Below, piece by piece: positions 46,430 through 64,000 of a stretch of DNA of 64,000 nt. Below the pieces are notes generated by a model. It had not been told where the DNA came from. It made no database searches and was given only the letters and a program-made list of their open reading frames with translations. The first letter of the stretch is position 1; the number at the start of each line of letters is the position of its first letter. The stretch comes from Rhodamnia argentea. Lineage: Eukaryota > Streptophyta > Magnoliopsida > Myrtales > Myrtaceae. The stretch is taken from assembly GCF_020921035.1 (NCBI RefSeq), contig NC_063158.1:3206001-3270000 (forward strand), written 5' to 3'. Both the position numbers and the translations under genes were made by a program.

Positions 46430-47730
46430 AGCTTCCCCACTAAAAATTATGTGCACCCACGAACACACAACCCGATTTCAACAGTGCCCTCGTATATATT
46501 TGGTCCTATACAAGGTGTAGGGAGAGAGAAAAATGTTGAACTTCGTGATGCCCACGAAGATATTTGGCCTCATGCATTTAAGTCAAAAGGAGTTTGGTTA
46601 AATAATAAGCCAATGTGATTTTGGGCTATGGCACTTAGAATATTGATTGTTTGGAGTCAACTACTTGATGGTTATACTGATATGGGTTTGATAGATTTTG
46701 GATAGAAAGGAGACAGCCAACGTGCGGGGCTCAATGTCTTCTTAGTTGAGGGCCTTAAGGCGTGATTGCAAGTTTTCAAGTGGTTTTCGATACCGAATCC
46801 CAAGTCGGGTTAGATCTGAAGCCAAAAGCTGGGGACTAGAAAGAGAAGCCATCGTCGAAAAGTAGAGGCTAGTTATTGAGCACCACAGACTACGAGAAGA
46901 CTACACAATTCTCATCACATATTGTTGGCATCATCTTGGTTTCAATACCGTGACAAAACTTGATCTGCGACATAAGATTGAGTAGAATTCAAGTCCTTTA
47001 CTCTCTTCTCTGAACAGTGATTCGCTGTGATTACTCAAAGAAATGCTGATAAGAAAAGGAAACCCAGAGCTGAAGTTCATGACCTTCCTGTAATCTGCAC
47101 AAAGTGAGCTGAAGTTCAAGCCATTCCTGTAATCTGTACTATGTGCAATGTTACAAGGCTACTTCTTTGTACCAAAGCCTCAGAAAGCAAGAGTTGAAGC
47201 ATTATTGTGGCAAACTGTGGCTGAAGTATGGAAACTTTTAGATACACGGTCTCTCTTGTTCCGCAAAAATATTCGTAAGCGATTTTCTCAATATTGACTA
47301 AGATGCCGTGACAGGTATTTACTAGCAGCATGTAACTGGAATTTGACATATTAACAGCACTCGTGATTGATTGTTGTTATACAAATAAATATTGTACAGC
47401 CATCTTGTTTCCTTCTCCTCACAACCAAGGTCATGATGCAGCAGCAATTTCCTCGGCATGTTATAACACGGTACATGCTGAGTCCCAATCTCGCATTGGC
47501 ACGTTCATCTTGTTAACATCTGAGAAATAATTCACCCTGCATAATGACGAGGGAATCGGAACTGTTGAGCACTAGTATCTGAATTTGATGCAGAGAGGTA
47601 CGACAATGAAGAATGAGCAGGTGGGTATGCGAGGCTCTGTGAGGACATTACAGCGCGGACTTCCTCAGAAAACCTGACAAGGTCAGGAAAAAAACCGAAA
47701 AGCTTGAGCGCTTAAGTTATGTACCTCTCA
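46430..47730. other. Spacer between expansin and PGRL1
   Basis: Expansin promoter (right end of that gene) and the presumed 3'UTR of PGRL1. No family-like coding frame or repeat was found. Confidence 0.45.
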
Positions 47731-50439
47731 TCAAGATTGACTTCCTTCGGGCAATGTAATCAACCGGGTTTTCGAGTCATACACCATCTCAGTTCCACAG
47801 CTGAAGCGAGAAGGGATAAATTAGCATATCAGTACGGACCATGGAGAACTGATAATAACTTGTTGATCAGAAAAGACAGTGGAGCGCTGATTGAAAGATG
47901 CAGAAAAACACGACTCAGGTCCAGAAAATTTCTTCCTACTCACTTTGAGCATTTAACAATGTTCGTTGTACCGCCGCTAGAGATGGACAATATGGTGCCA
48001 AAGAAGGAGACATTCTCCGTGCCGCAGTTGGGGCAGGCACCCTGCAACCCCGATAATCTTTAAGTACAGTTTTACTATGAAGAGTGCTGAAAATGTTGAG
48101 TGATGGATCATGATGAAGCTTGACCTTTAAAATGAGCGAGTCTTTCACAATCACATTCGTCAGCGATAGAGCCAGATAAACTAGGAGCGGCAGAGCCGCG
48201 AACCATGTGAAAATGAAACTAAACGGCTCAGGCAGCTGCAGGAGTGAAGAGAAAAGTAACGCAATTGGGGGTCACAACATGGAAGGCGCAAGATATCGAA
48301 TATCAAGCTCTTGCGAAGGGAAAAATAACCGAGACAGCGCGAACTACAAGTCCACAAAAGGAAGCAACTATTTCAGTAGCTCCAACAGCTACAAAGATAA
48401 AGGGACAAAAAGAAACAATTCCTGATTACCTCCAAAAGATATGTAATCTCAAATCCAGTTATATCATCCAGGAAGAAGAACCTTTAAGACCCGAAAAGAG
48501 CGGGTTAGGAGAAAAATGCACTTGTCTGGCAAAATGGTAATAGCGTGAAACGATCTTCCGGTAATAAACAAATGTCGGTGAAAACGAAATTCTACTTACA
48601 GTCCTAGTGCGACAACAGTTGCTGGGACATTCAACAGAAACATCTTGAGGTAATCAACAGAAAGGTCACTGTAGACCTGTCATGGGAGGATTAATCAGTA
48701 ATGTCTGAGCCCCTTGGAGGAATAAATAGACCGAGTAATAAAAAAGGAGAGAGAAACACACAAGAAAAATAAACCTTTCGGCTGCGGAGGCTGCATCGTG
48801 GGCCTTCGGCAACGATTTCGCTCCCGTCAGTCTGCAAAAAACAGAGGTGATGAAGCACATGATCTATTGGAAGGACAAGGAGGAAGGATAAAGCACATGA
48901 AGTTTTGCTTAATCTTGTTTATCGCCCCAACATCTGGCTTCTGTTGAAGAAGCAGGCAAGTTTCCACATTCCTCACAGAGTTCATGGTCCAAACAGGGAC
49001 ATAACATATCGTCTGTGGTATGGATGTTCCTATTTCTATATTGAACAAGACAGGTGCAGATGCTAATTGAACGAAGCTACGTCAATGGCTTGTCGAATAT
49101 GCTGCACCCGGTTCTCTCGCTCAATGTACAATCTCAATGGCTATCTATCCTCAGAAACAAATGACATATGTTAGTAGCACCTACAATCGCATTCTATGAT
49201 AGCGACCTTTAGTCTCAATTTCAGGTCGTCGTATTCTTGGTCGTTCATAATTGGATTGCCAGACACGTAGGCCATCGAAGCTTCCAAGAATCTTTGCTCA
49301 TCAGAAGCTGCATTACACGAGATGCGGAGAAGTCAGTGAAAGTGCATCCGATAGGTTGTGACAAACAGCATAATGGTTAGATGCGACAGTTGGAAACGTT
49401 TAGCTCAATCATCCGTTATACATAGCATGACAACGCTGCTTCCTTCCCACATGAGCTCTTCCTTGAGATTGTCGAATTCCTCATTTGACATGATTGCTTT
49501 CCCTTCATAGTAAAATGACTGTATAACAGCAATTAGTGTACGTATACGATGAAATGATGCATGCCATATAAAAGAAAAGAAAAGAAAAAAAAACAAAAGA
49601 AAGGTGCTCAGATTCTTCCATACTTGTAGTGCTTGAAGAAATTCTTGTTCAAGTTCGCCGAGAGACTTCTTCTCTTTCTTGTCTATGTTGCAATATGGCA
49701 GAATTTTGCTATCTTCAACATCGGACTCTCCTTCTTCTACCTTGCCTGAAAAGTGCACAAAAAGTCGAAACGACAGCCGATCAACCATAATCAGACATTA
49801 CCAAGCTAAAATAATCTTCGCCCAGGAAGACTTTTATCATCCTGACTGACTCATGGTGACTCCAGTTTTAGCAAACATGATTTTCTAGGACGGCACAGAA
49901 CAAACTAGCCAATATGGTGATCTCAGACAGCTAGCCGATACGTGATCAGATCATGAGAACAGACCATGTCGCGATCTGTATCATAGACATCAGCTACCCG
50001 ACTTATAAAAGCAAAGCAAAATGAGTCCCACATCCTAGAGCTCTGATGGGAAGCCGTGCGGCTCCTATTTTCGGCGCGATCCCTACTAAGTTTTCTCTCG
50101 GGCATGAAATTTTCCGGACCGTTTGTATCAGTAAACCACAGACTACACCTCTCAAGTACTCAGAGGCGCAAAATCACGTCACTGGGGGGGGGAAGGGGTC
50201 ATATGACCATACCGACCTTGTTGATCAGCAGTAGCCTTCACGGGGATCATGAGCACTCGCCGCCACACCCACGACCGCCGTCCATCGGATGCTCGGGCCC
50301 TCGAAGAGGAAGAACAAGAAGAAGAAGAACACGGCGCCGGACCCGGAACGGACGGCACGAAAGGAGCAGAGGGCTTCCGAGCGGGCTTAGCGAACAGGCG
50401 ATGGCATGTCAAAGTAGCCCCTAACTTGGTGCTAGCCAT
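47731..50439 (-). CDS. PGRL1: PGR5-like protein 1, thylakoid cyclic electron flow factor
   Basis: Thylakoid membrane partner of PGR5 in antimycin-sensitive cyclic electron flow around photosystem I (family knowledge). Exons: 50439-50217, 49745-49624, 49518-49422, 49307-49207, 48831-48775, 48676-48600, 48481-48430, 48235-48125, 48041-47944, 47800-47731; 1,008 nt, or 335 aa, all in phase. The Ser/Arg-rich N-terminus is a chloroplast transit peptide. SFYYEGKAIMSNEEFDNLKEELMWEGSSVVML and ASMAYVSGNPIMNDQEYDDL are hallmark stretches. Two membrane helices lie at about 213-230 and 249-271. The redox/iron cysteine pairs CPNC (283-286) and CSNC (311-314) are present. The start is the first ATG (MASTKLG). 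A GATAAG I-box-like site lies upstream at 50588, and the foldback element begins 197 bp upstream of the ATG. Confidence 0.95.
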
Positions 50440-50635
50440 GGCCAATACCAGTCAAGGGGAAGCGAAGAAACTGAGCAGACGAGGAAGATTAGTAGTGTCA
50501 ATCGACAGCCGATTCATTCGGGGTGAATTTTGCTCTTTCGTTGTTTCGTGAGTTGATGTTTGGAGGGAAAGAGAGACGGATCGTGAAGATAAGGTGGCGG
50601 AGCAACGTGTGGAGGGAAACGCAACGGCATTTTGT

Positions 50636-50781
50636 GGGTTTTTTTTCCAATTTAATTTTTTTTTAAATATTTACAAAAATATTTTTTAAAAACAAATATT
50701 TACGGATTTGGGCCTCGCTTGGCAGTTGGGTTGCCGAGCGAGGCTTGCTCGGCAGCCCAACTGCCGAGTAAGTGTCTATCT

Positions 50782-50822
<41 letters not shown>

Positions 50823-52318
50823 CGTTTTTTTAAGTGTTTTAATTATTTATATTTATAATATTTTCGTATTTTTTAACATGTTTATATTTATTTTATTTAT
50901 ATTTTTTTTGCGAAGCTTATCTTTATAACATAATTAGTAATAATTAATACAAAAAATTATTAAGATCTATAATTCATAAATAATGTTGTAATTATGTAAT
51001 TAATTGAAAATATTCACATAAGGAAAATCCCCAATACCAAACGAAAAGAAACCCTAGCCGCAGTATAAAAAATAGAGCCCAAAAAAATTTTAGGAGCGTT
51101 GCTCCCAAACCCCCACGCAGATTTGTTCGCATCGTAAAAGAGATTTGTTCGCTTGCTCGGAGTTGGGCCTATCGGCCCAACTCTCCGCGTCACAAACTAA
51201 ATTTCAATTTTTCCTCCACTTTTTGGGCCGCACAAAAATATGTCGGGTCGGGTGATAAACCGGACCGGGTACATAAAATTCAAAACATATTTAACAATAT
51301 ATGAAATTAATTGAAAATATTCATAATATAAAATTGGTAAAATATTCATATAAATAATGTTATTGGCTAAAAAGATTGAAAGAGGAGGAAAGAGGGAAAA
51401 GAGGGGTCATTTAATACTGAGAAGTAACACCGGAGGGAAAAAAAATGCAAAATTGACAAGGAAAACGGCCGTTTTCCCACACAAAAAGAAAAAGAAAAGC
51501 CCGGCATTTTTTCCCCAAAAAAAGCCGTTTTCCTTGTCAATTTTGCATTTTTTTCCCTTCGGTGTTACTTCTCGATATTAAATGAACCCTCATTTCCCTC
51601 TTTCCTCCTCTTTCAATCTTTTTAGCCGACCGAATTGCATAATTACAACATTATTTATATGAATATTTTACCAATTTTATATTATGAATATTTTCAATTA
51701 ATTTCATATATTGTAAAATATGTTTTGAATTTTATGTACCCGGTCCGGTTTATCACCCGACCCGACATATTTTTGTGCGGCCCAAAAAGTGGAGGAAAAA
51801 TTGAGATTTAGTTTGTGACGCGGAGAGTTGGGCCGATAGGCCCAACTCGGAGCAAACGAACAAATCTCATTTGCGATGCGAACAAATTTGCGTGGGGGTT
51901 TAGGGGCAATGCCCCCGAGAAATTTTTTTTTGGGTTATATTTTTTATACCGAGGCTAGGGTTTCTTTTCGTTTGGTATTGAGGATTTTCCTTATGTGAAT
52001 ATTTTCAATTAATTACATAATTACACCATTATTTATGAATTATAGATCTTAATAATTTTTTGTATTAATTATTACTAATTATGTTATAAAGATAAACTTT
52101 GCAAAATAAATAAATAAATAAAATATATGTTAAAAAATACGAAAATATTATAAATATAAATAATTAAAACACTTAAAAAAATGAAATTTAAAAAAAAAAA
52201 AGAGATAGACACTTGCTCGGCAGCCCAACCGCCGAGCGAAGCCCAAATTCGTAAATATTTATTTTTAAAAAATATTTTTGTAAATATTTTTTAAAAAAAT
52301 TAAATTAGAAAAAAACCC
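50636..52318. mobile_element. 1.68-kb foldback (Mutator-like, TIR-only) element with 9-bp TSD
   Basis: Left arm about 50636-51470 and right arm about 51522-52318 are near-perfect reverse complements, separated by a ~50-nt spacer. The termini are gggttttttttcc at the left and ...aaaaaaaccc at the right. The exact direct repeat gcattttgt flanks the element at 50627-50635 and 52319-52327. A 9-bp target duplication is the Mutator-superfamily length. No transposase is present. The arms contain a smaller dyad, GCTCGGCAGCCCAACTGCCGAG-like (about 50734-50767), of which the right arm has only one copy. A fully paired transcript would be an ~800-bp hairpin. Confidence 0.9.
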
Positions 52319-52329
52319 GCATTTTGTCC

Positions 52330-53053: not shown

Positions 53054-54390
53054 TGTCAAAAGAGTATCCATTTTTATTTTTATGTTTTTTTTCCTCTAAT
53101 TCATACAGGTTTTTTTTAGTTGGGTCCACAAATTTGTCATTGGTACAATCGTGTCATTCAATTTACATGATTCATGTAATGGATTTATTCCATCGTTAGC
53201 GAACTTAATTACGCTTACGTGGTCGCCGGCGCGACAATATCGAGTACTACAAAAAATGAAAAAGAAGTAATATTTATCACCATTGAATTTTGTTACATGA
53301 AAGTCTCTTCATTGAAAGACTTTCTTACTCCCATGGCACAAGACATCTGAAATTCCAAATGAGCATATGACGAAAGATTGCTCAAGATCAAATCGGGCAT
53401 CCGCTGTTAATTGACGTAAGAGCAAGAAATATAAAATTAGGGGTGATCGATTTCGGGGTAGACATATTCCGCACTCGAAACCTACCCTGTTATAACGGGT
53501 TCTCAATTTTTGGAACCCGAAACCTACCTAGTTTTTCCTGAACTGGTTCTATAACCTACCCCGCTTTTCCGATTCGGTTCAAGGTCTATCCGATAACCTA
53601 TTTTTTTCCCTTTTTTATTTCATTTTTTACAACAAAATAATATGAGCAACAAAACGGCTCAAATTAAAAGATGACCAGCATAAATCACTATTAGCCAAAC
53701 ACATGATCACATATTATTATGAATAATAAAAAGTTCAAACATGTAATGTAAAACATAAATTATAAAACTTCGTTCCCATTCATCAAAATAAATTTTTAAA
53801 CTCCATTCATCCATACAAATATTAATCCAAAGAATAGAGAGAGAGAGAGGCAACAAAGAATGGAGAAAAACCAAATAAGGTGAGGTAGAATTAGACTCAA
53901 CTTAGAGAAATTATGTTGTTTTTAAAAGATATCGGTAGCTACCTCAAGGGAAGGAGGATGATCTTTACCCCAACCTTGTAAGGAAGGCAATCGACTCCTT
54001 GCCTCGTTGCTCTCTTTCACAACTTTGTAGTGTAGTGTGCAGCTGAGAAGGAAACCCCCTCGATAGAACTTTAACTGAAGAAGAAATTCCACTAGGGAAA
54101 AAATTCAAGAATTCTCTTTCTTTCTTCAGCATAGCATAATCAATCTGTTTTGTTCTTGAACCTAGACAAGTGAAAACCCTTTCTTTCAGCGAGGCAAGAG
54201 AGGACTGACTCGACTGAGTTTCAAGCAGCAGATGGTTGGAGAGGGTTCACGCATTCCCCTACTCTTACTCTTAATGTGGAGACCTTCTAGTTGAAGTGCT
54301 AAGAACATATATTTTCCCGCTGTAAGTATGAGGGGACATTTCCTATCATATAGCCTTTCAAAAACTGACTTGCGCCTAAGATGCCTACCT
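52330..54390. other. Spacer with a long GA microsatellite
   Basis: AT-rich DNA with a 50-bp GA run at 53001-53050. A degenerate 'acccgaaacctacc' repeat occurs at about 53475-53590 and a short GA run at 53837-53848. No gene was recognised. Confidence 0.5.
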
Positions 54391-54396
54391 GACATG

Positions 54397-55039
54397 GACA
54401 ATCTTTTTAATTTTTTTAAAAATTAGGAATTTTTTAATACTTTCTATTTTGTTTTATTTTCATTTTTTCTATCCTTCGGTATTAGAGATCTTAGAATGGT
54501 AAGATAGCACCTCATCAGTTGGCAAGGGCCTACAAGCCCTTTGTTGAGAGACATAACACATTGAAAGTTCACAAATGACTATTGAGTCCTCGCCAGCCGC
54601 AATGGCTGAAGCCCTTTGTTGAGAGATATAATAGCCATTGCGACTGGCGAGGACTCAATAGTCAATTGTGAACTTTCAATGTGTTATATCTCTCAACAAA
54701 GGGCTTGTAGGCCCTTGCCAGCCGATGAGGTGCTATCTTACCATTCTAAGATCCCCAATACCGAACAGGTATTAAAGAGAATGAAGGAGAAGATAAAAAA
54801 AAATGAAAATAAAACAAAATAGAAAGTATTAAAAAATTCCTAATTTTTTAAAAAAATTAAAAAGATTGTCTATGTAAGTATCGGCTGTGCCACGTAAGAC
54901 AGTTGGAGTTCATATTAATTATTCTTGGCCAAAACGGCAAATCGTCAAAATGTTTAGGACTAAATTGACCAAAATTCAAAGAATTATGACCGAAATGGCA
55001 TATGCGCAATAAGTTTAGGGCCTTTTTGGTAATTTGCCC
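54397..55039. mobile_element. Hairpin core plus one terminal arm of a Mutator-like MITE (truncated)
   Basis: The segments 54397-54607 and 54633-54870 form a near-perfect inverted repeat around a 25-nt loop. Both outer ends read gacaatc / gattgtc. To the right, 54871-55039 has stacked 'tttaggactaaattgacc'-type units and ends with aatttgccc, the reverse of the GGGCAA terminus of the MITE at 60201. No matching left terminal arm is found, so the element is probably truncated on the left. It encodes nothing. Confidence 0.7.
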
Positions 55040-57655: not shown

Positions 57656-58961
<1,306 letters not shown>

Positions 58962-61452: not shown

Positions 61453-63200
61453 TCATTCATGTTGTACTAGCGACCTCAAAGGTTCGTTCGAAAAGAAAGC
61501 TCTCAAGTTGCCGATTATGAGTTCCTGCACAGCTTCCAAGGATTCCGGAGTCATGACGGCGCGGTGTGGAGAGAGCACGACGTTGTCCAGCGCGAGCAGC
61601 TCATCCGGCACCTTGGGCTCCTTCTCAAACACGTCGAGGCCGGCACCGCCGATCTCGCCCCTCACCAAGCGTCGCACCAGCTCTTTCTCATCCACCAGAG
61701 CCCCACGCCCGACGTTTATGATTACGCCTCCTTTCCCGAGCGCCGACATCACGTCCTTGCCGACGATGTGGCGAGTGCCTTCCGTCAGAGCGCAGCAGAG
61801 GACAAGAATGTCGCTATTAGCTGCAAGGTCACGGACGTTGGCGTAGTAAGGGTATGGAACGTGCGGTTTCTCCTTCCTTGAGTTGTAGGCGATGCTGCAT
61901 CCGAAGGACACCAGCCGCTTCGCAGTCTTGGAGCCAATACTTCCAAGCCCAACTATGCCGACCCGTTTTCCCCCTAACTGCAATGTTTGACATTCGGTTA
62001 GCCGACACCAAAAACCTCCTCCTGTGCAAAGCAACTATAAGTCGCTGAGGAGTTAATGTGAGAGAAGTAGCTATCAGTTCCAGACCATTTGATCGGAACT
62101 TACACTCTTTTAACATTGGCATGCTTTTCTATGCATCTGTGTAATCATACAGGCTATATTCAACATATAACAGCAACCATAGGATCTAAAACCTCATGAA
62201 ATATCGGTGTCGGGAACTAGAACTATGGGCTCATGACAAATTCATTGCAGTTTAGCTGGAATGGAGCCCATCATTTTGCTCCGGAAGAACTTCCCAGCGT
62301 GAGTTTGTCTGGCTCACCAAATGTTACTACCTTTCTTGGCAGCTGCAATAACATCGGCTCACCAAAGTGACGAACAACATCTTGATCAGACCACTCGATG
62401 AACGTTCCTAGTGATAATCGCAAAATTAGACAAGTCCCTAACAAGATCCGAGATTTGGACGAGGGTCTTGTTAGTTACTATGTTAACTACTCTGCAACTT
62501 AGTAAGATTAATATTTTCGATTCGAGGAATGTACTTTCAATTTCGCACATTGCGGAAATTTCAAGGTACAAACTTCCACATTTATAAAGTGTACTGGAAA
62601 CTGGAAAGCGCACGACTCGAATTGCTAAAACTAAAGTTTAATGTGATTACTTTGCAAATCTCCAAAAATTACGAACTTGGCATTCGGCCCAACATCTCCC
62701 AAATGATTAGCGATGATAAGCTGACCTACCTTGAAACCCAGGGGGAACTCCCTCTGGACCGGCCACGACCCGGCCCGGACGAACCGGTCGCCGTGCGAAA
62801 CCCTCCTCATCACGTCGATCAACATCGCCACCGCGTAGTCGGCCCCGTCCTCGCAGAACGCGGCGCTGGCGTTCGCGACAGCGATCCCCCGCCGGCGACA
62901 ATACGGGAGGTCCACGTGCTCGAGCCCCGCGCTGGAGACGACGATGAGCTCGAGGGAAGGGAGGAGGTCCAGGGTTCCGGCGTTGACGGGGACGAAGGGG
63001 GTGAAGAGGCAGAGGAGGGCCCGGACGGAGCGGCAGCGGAGGGAGAGGAAGGATTGAGCCGGCTCGGACGAGTCGAGCGGGTCGAGGAGGTGGAAGTGAG
63101 CTCGGAGGCGGGCGGCGAGGGGGAGGAGGGTGAGGGCGGAGGGGCGGAGGAGGAGGACTTTGGGGAGGACGGCGTCGTTCTGGGGTGGGTTGGTGTCCAT
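61453..63200 (-). CDS. HPR3: D-2-hydroxyacid dehydrogenase, HPR3 / HPPR-like
   Basis: NAD(P)H-dependent reductase of the glyoxylate/hydroxypyruvate and hydroxyphenylpyruvate reductase group. It reduces short 2-oxo acids or p-hydroxyphenylpyruvate, probably in the cytosol (family knowledge). Exons 63200-62730 and 61977-61453 give 996 nt, or 331 aa; the single intron is in phase 0. The split substrate domain has LELIVVSSAGLEHVDLPYCRRRGIAVANA and YAVAMLIDVMRR. The Rossmann motif GLGSIG is at 167-172. Catalytic Arg248 (NVGRGALVDE), the acid near 275-277 (FEKEP) and His295 (SPHRAVMTPES) are all present. Exon 1 is very GC-rich. HPR3 versus other HPPR-like paralogues cannot be settled from the sequence. 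Confidence 0.88.
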
Positions 63201-63254
63201 CGTTGGATCGTTCGACTGACGGTGGTGGGATGTGTGACCGAGGGGCGATGATCG

Positions 63255-64000
63255 CGTTACAGAAACGCGACTCGTATCAATGACAACACCACAGACTTAT
63301 TGTCAATGAGATTATTAAATTTAATTGGCTAAGTATATGATGTTGCTGACATAGCTACGGAGACAAAAGGGCACTTTTTACGTCAGCCAGTCCGTCATTC
63401 ATTTGTTTGTAACTTCTTTTTAGGTTTATATCTACGTCGGTGCAACACGCCACACGACACGATACGACAAGTTGACAAATAAATTATAAAAATATAAAAT
63501 ATTTCGACACGTTGGGACATGTTATATAATATAAATATTCTTGTAAGTTATCGTTTTCATGATTTTAATAATAATAAAAAATGATAATAGAAATGATAAT
63601 TCCGACATCTCTCTTCCCGCTTTTAACTTTTTGTCCTCCACTCAAAACTCTTTCTTTTTTTATCTTCTCATCTTGACTCAGTCAACTCTTACCTCCCCCA
63701 AAATCTGCTCTCTTGTACACGTGTATGGGCAGAGATGGCGTGTACAGGTGAGTGACAGGTGAGCGGCCAGTGGACTTTCGAGAAAGGGTGGATGTGTGTA
63801 AACATGGCCAAAATGAACCGAGGCCCGAAACCGGCCCATTGATCCTGCCCACGGTTTCGATCCGATTTTTTTTTTTTTTAAAAAAAGAAGAGGCTTGGAA
63901 AAAAAGAGCCGTTGGGCCTAGGAACCGGAATCGGCGATTTCAAGGACCCGGCCACGTCTATATGTGTGTACGTGAATGACTACATCCCCCAAAGTTTTTT
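63255..64000. other. Right-edge spacer, no gene seen
   Basis: Promoter side of the HPR3-like gene and AT-rich sequence to the window end. It includes the second copy of the dispersed repeat (63435-63580). No family-like frame was found. Confidence 0.45.

Follow-up and report, generated by a model that had tools for sequence, protein, structure and literature searches.

The foldback element and its surroundings

The window, that is, the whole 64-kb stretch of DNA that was analysed (C9:3206001-3270000), contains a non-autonomous Mutator foldback element at positions 50636 to 52318 (1,683 bp, no strand assigned). The element begins with GGGTTTTTTTTC and ends with GAAAAAAACCC. It is flanked by two copies of the 9-bp sequence GCATTTTGT (50627 to 50635 and 52319 to 52327, no strand assigned), which agree at 9 of 9 positions at the two edges, so that the exact 9-bp target site duplication (TSD) given in a preliminary description of this DNA was confirmed. 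The left arm (50636 to 51474, forward strand) and the right arm (51518 to 52318, reverse strand), both with approximate boundaries, span the element apart from a loop of about 40 nt (51475 to 51517, no strand assigned). The left arm corresponds to the transposase-distal end of the coding element described below, up to a short hinge repeat, and the right arm to an inverted copy of the same end; the loop is collinear with the coding copies. The terminal stretch of about 105 bp (50636 to 50742, forward strand) is the sole part of the arm that occurs at both ends of the coding element.

The element is the longest inverted repeat that was found within the window. Self-alignment of the arms, which had been proposed as a check, gave 746 identical positions in 795 ungapped columns (93.8%), with 49 mismatches; when the 93 gap columns, in 13 gaps, were counted, the identity was 84.0%. 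The longest perfectly paired runs were 89, 69, 68, and 55 bp. The inverted arms are real, but the earlier wording of a near-perfect palindrome was an overstatement because of the indels between the arms.

The neighbouring gene, whose presumed start codon (CAT) was read from the sequence at 50438 to 50440 on the reverse strand, lies outside the element. It is presumably PGRL1, a name that was given in the preliminary description; searches of Pfam with two exons and of PDB with one exon gave no support for the name. One exon of the gene is single-copy in the genome. Between the presumed start codon and the TSD the distance is 186 bp, and to the element it is 195 bp. The close proximity described earlier holds, but the distance of 197 bp does not.

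A second palindrome of about 490 bp is located at 54389 to 54878; its inner arms, 133 bp long and 95% complementary, enclose 25 nt. The full palindrome is single-copy in the genome. Its ends are 76 to 82% identical to other places, and its inner parts match C7:25673964-25674068 (81%) and, exactly over 31 nt, C6:22681370. Possible identities are a small foldback MITE and a young hairpin or microRNA-like locus. The frames in 57656 to 58961 resemble plant 2-oxoglutarate dioxygenases, with a DIOX_N match, and we take them to be anthocyanidin synthase-like. The frames in 61453 to 63296 resemble D-2-hydroxyacid dehydrogenase.

Dispersed copies and empty sites

The element was used as a query against the genome (346.7 Mb, 74 contigs), and at least 268 matches were detected, with 40 of 656 candidates scored. 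A further 40 stretches (L009 to L048) and the window copy (L001) gave 41 loci for comparison. Both ends were present at 20 of the 41 loci, and at 21 only one end lay inside the stretch. Among the two-ended loci, 14 of 20 had a perfect TSD of at least 9 bp, four had a TSD with one mismatch (L013, L018, L029, and L045), the duplication at L017 had two mismatches (7 of 9), and L014 had no target duplication. The same TSD borders L010 and L012, whose flanks are 92 to 96% identical; independent insertions are therefore rejected, and the two represent one duplicated insertion. Once this segmental duplicate was merged, the TSD was perfect at 13 of 19 two-ended loci. The foldback architecture is thus dispersed in multiple copies genome-wide, and the genome search for copies with common ends suggested by the preliminary description led to a dispersed family, mostly with TSDs of its members' own. 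The recurrence of the ends elsewhere with their own 9-bp duplications, together with the rank of the palindrome as the longest inverted repeat in the window, indicates that the palindrome is more than chance.

Empty sites were searched for by comparing the joined flanks of six copies (L009, L011, L013, L018, L019, and L020) with the genome. For L013, 10 paralogous places on C7, 73 to 82% identical, run through its junction; two of these were aligned and contain a single copy of the target without the insert. A single place on C5 (74%) spans the L019 junction, where the alignment is gapped within a TA repeat. The joined flanks of L009, L011, L018, and L020 had no junction-spanning place in the genome. 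For the window site, no empty allele was found in the one assembly searched, in which both flanks are single-copy.

Coding copies with MULE and plant mobile domain frames

Matches to the MULE transposase domain (PF10551) were found 5 to 6 kb from the ends at at least 8 family copies, and PF10536 matches were found beside at least 10 of the 15 coding-type loci. A complete coding-type copy of 9,214 bp is located at C3:12884750-12893963, with the 9-bp TSD AGAATTTGC on both sides and end repeats that are 92% identical over 89 bp. Its transposase frame is broken into separate short frames. A copy on C5 has a 555-amino-acid frame with Pfam matches to MULE (2.4e-17) and DBD_Tnp_Mut (4.9e-06) and a further frame with a plant mobile domain (PMD) match (5e-53), and no TSD was found for it. 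The MULE and PMD frames are separate, about 1.7 to 3.7 kb apart, and the coding copies have a TIR-like stretch repeated near the right end.

Eight coding copies were examined, and only the C3 copy had a convincing TSD. Apart from the C3 and C5 copies, the stretches compared for the remaining six revealed neither a convincing TSD nor an outer right end. A 9-of-9 match at L044 was not counted, as it lies inside sequence common to all these coding copies. Since the transposase frame of the C3 copy is in pieces, no intact two-ended autonomous copy was found among those examined.

The palindrome arms match positions 1 to 364 and 559 to 1101 of the C3 copy, and its other end has only about 105 bp in common with them. 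This indicates that both arms correspond to the same, transposase-distal end. Judged by sequence, elements of the type of the C3 copy are likely to be the mobilising partner of the foldbacks. The earlier assignment to a Mutator-superfamily foldback without coding capacity is upheld by the family TSDs, the empty sites of a related copy, and the coding MULE with the same ends.

Genome-wide, a PMD was found within 5 kb at 37 of 150 scored MULE domains, compared with 0.5 expected by random placement and a maximum of 3 in 1,000 random trials, which points to a large set of MULE-PMD elements. In the family searches, 150 of 474 MULE candidates and 117 of 2,465 PMD candidates were scored; the PMD list used for the pairing held 117 of 150 rows, second fragments having been dropped.

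The hinge of the palindrome

The centre of the element was aligned for 27 loci and a duplicate row (K). In ten palindromic loci (L009 to L015, L017, L030, and the window), the sequence agrees with that of the coding copies across the loop (about 40 nt) as far as GCCGTTTTYCTTGT, after which all 10 switch to the reverse complement of the arm. At this junction, 15 coding-type loci read on into AATTATGTAATTAATTT. L016 and L023 have other junctions, with neither the turn nor the AATTATGTAATTAATTT continuation. Across the loop from GCCGTTTTYCTTGT, the coding copies bear ACAAGGAAAACRGC, and these two sequences make up an inverted repeat that is short and imperfect.

Five copies (L021, L024, L025, L026, and L028) have long arms on either side of an interior that they share. 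The interior is 784 bp in most of these copies and 358 bp in L026, is 95 to 98% identical among them, and had no match to the C3 element. It is perhaps captured sequence, as in Pack-MULEs; a Pfam search with an interior open reading frame from the longer copies gave nothing above the cut-off. The left end of the coding-type locus L027 is an arm like that of L024, after which this region occurs once more in its coding-type form, a structure which suggests that foldback and coding elements may have exchanged ends.

Divergence of the arms

The distances between arms of different elements were independent of arm type (AA 0.088, BB 0.087, and AB 0.089, loop-oriented). Arms of the same element were on average 0.069 apart (eight elements, with L012 and without L017). 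When L012 was dropped and L017 included, again eight elements, the within-element mean was 0.072 versus 0.090 over all pairings, and only 2 of 40,320 permutations were as low as observed. Sister arms came from the same element in six of nine elements, the exceptions being L009, L014, and L010. This statistical evidence indicates mutual homogenisation of the two arms of an element, either following insertion or in the interval between insertions, and the process is probably gene conversion within the palindrome. Homogenisation was not uniform, because in two elements the arms differ more from one another than from some arm elsewhere: those of L015 are 10.8% apart versus 8.3% from the nearest other arm, and those of the window copy are 7.3% apart versus 6.4 to 6.6% from the nearest other arms.

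The terminal branches of the window arms in the arm tree are 0.063 and 0.050. In the coding-type clade they are 0 to 0.03 (in a tree of the central 470 bp only), mostly far shorter than those of the window arms. With such branches, and with the nearest other arms as far away as given above, the element is not evidently young, contrary to the earlier proposal, although the branches include change that preceded the insertion.

Over 16 arms, transitions had occurred at 73 of 872 consensus CG, 36 of 465 CHG, 119 of 2,346 CHH, and 101 of 8,660 A/T sites. In the window arms, the counts were 10 of 110, 4 of 60, 17 of 299, and 8 of 1,079, respectively. The excess at C in all contexts, in a comparison made without an unmethylated control, suggests past cytosine methylation of the family.

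Origin of the palindrome and its relation to PGRL1

Palindromes are a known class of artefact in assemblies and libraries, as far as the portion of the literature consulted goes. For the window element, we give such an origin a practically negligible probability because the arms differ by about 6 to 7% (at 49 of the 795 ungapped columns) and because other members of the family have independent TSDs and empty sites; the TSD of the window element is itself exact. As to how a real palindrome arose, the broken end of a coding element may have annealed at ACAAGGAAAACRGC...GCCGTTTTYCTTGT and primed the copying of that end, which would give a palindrome in one step. All 10 palindromic rows leave the coding sequence exactly where the short repeat ends, as fold-back priming would predict. 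The same junction would result, however, from a microhomology deletion between 14-bp repeats in a long-armed ancestor, which is possible since long-armed forms with unrelated interiors exist (L021 to L028), and also if the coding copies had been derived from the foldback. Being unrooted, the arm tree leaves the direction undecided, and L016 and L023 have different junctions. Fold-back priming is therefore put forward tentatively, as an explanation that has a reasonable chance but that we do not favour over its alternatives taken together.

The preliminary description had also proposed that small interfering RNAs from the arms could silence or tune PGRL1. None of the 1,431 non-simple 15-mers of the element was found in the part of the window from 47500 to 50626, which contains PGRL1 and its upstream flank, and silencing of PGRL1 in trans by sequence is accordingly not supported. 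Each of 12 coding-type loci tested contained 176 to 430 of the 1,577 24-mers of the element. Any small RNAs that the element might produce would therefore match the parent family. The insertion might instead alter PGRL1 in cis, through displaced promoter elements or spreading methylation. The TSD is 186 bp from the presumed start codon of a gene with a single-copy exon. On the far side of the insertion there are now a G-box (52464) and three ACGT cores (52385, 52465, and 52487), and an ACGT core at 50605 and an I-box at 50588 stay on the near side. The excess of C transitions is also in keeping with such an effect. Motif matches are weak evidence, however, displaced motifs prove nothing alone, and the arms and the gene have no 15-mer in common. 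We consider an effect in cis unlikely.

Proposed mechanism and implications

The account that we prefer, and hold to be very probable as a whole, is that of a non-autonomous Mutator foldback made of two inverted copies of a MULE end, mobilised in trans, with homogenised arms and a hairpin that matches the parent. The source would be a MULE of the same genome, 9 kb long and with two genes, for a MULE transposase and a plant mobile domain. Its transposase-distal end would be present in the palindrome twice, in opposite orientations, each time over about 840 bp. The common ends GGGTTTTTTTTC...GAAAAAAACCC would let the MULE transposase move the foldback in trans, and each insertion would duplicate 9 bp, in keeping with the TSDs, the empty sites, and the common ends. 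Gene conversion inside the palindrome would then homogenise the arms after or between insertions. If transcribed, the element would give a long hairpin RNA, and the small RNAs from it would match the coding copies at their ends and would not match PGRL1.

A lone palindrome has thus become a family with a likely parent, and the expected target of any small RNAs from it has been corrected from PGRL1 to the parent transposons. Since the junction has been located to the base and 15 coding-type loci are uninterrupted there, the origin of the foldback is directly testable. It is conceivable, but in our view improbable, that the foldbacks act as a mobile, multi-copy analogue of Mu killer, with hairpin small RNAs that would act against all coding copies of the parent MULE and gene conversion that would keep the arms paired. 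If this were true, a derivative would both parasitise and silence its parent MULE.

Comparison with known systems

FARE of Arabidopsis is a plant foldback family tied to a MULE-domain transposase. The present family is like it in both of these descriptive respects. FARE foldback transposons are named in a report on Tm1, a Mutator/Foldback family of root-knot nematodes with long inverted arms of about 93% identity and mostly 9-bp TSDs (PMC3169594). According to that report, non-coding Tm1 copies exist alongside one that has a MULE-domain transposase of the Phantom type, and the arms are composite (PMC3169594). The family described here resembles Tm1 in its foldback arms, their similar identity, the 9-bp TSDs, and the presence of non-coding copies together with a copy with MULE transposase. 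Unlike the nematode, Phantom-type Tm1, it is associated with a plant MULE and a PMD, and its arms correspond to a single end of the coding element.

Rearranged and duplicated end sequences have been described in MULEs with multiple or tandem TIRs (PMC3310237). The coding copies here are similar in that they repeat a TIR-like stretch near the right end, but the duplication that gave the palindrome is inverted and not tandem. MULEs that captured a PMD have been described in grasses and Amborella, where the two form fusion proteins (PMC5418596). A MULE transposase and a PMD are likewise combined here, but in separate frames and in a different plant genome. In the part of the literature covered, no description of a foldback family paired with a PMD-MULE was found, which does not prove that there is none.

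The Mu killer locus of maize, in which one end of a MULE is duplicated in inverted orientation, includes transposase coding sequence (PMC3440606). The foldbacks are also inverted duplications of one MULE end and could in principle give a long hairpin RNA against their parent. Mu killer is described there as a locus, whereas the foldbacks are many dispersed copies, of which the two-ended ones mostly have their own TSD. In contrast to the transposase coding sequence of Mu killer, the arms here are non-coding (positions 1 to 1101 of the C3 copy), and the transposase matches lie far beyond them.
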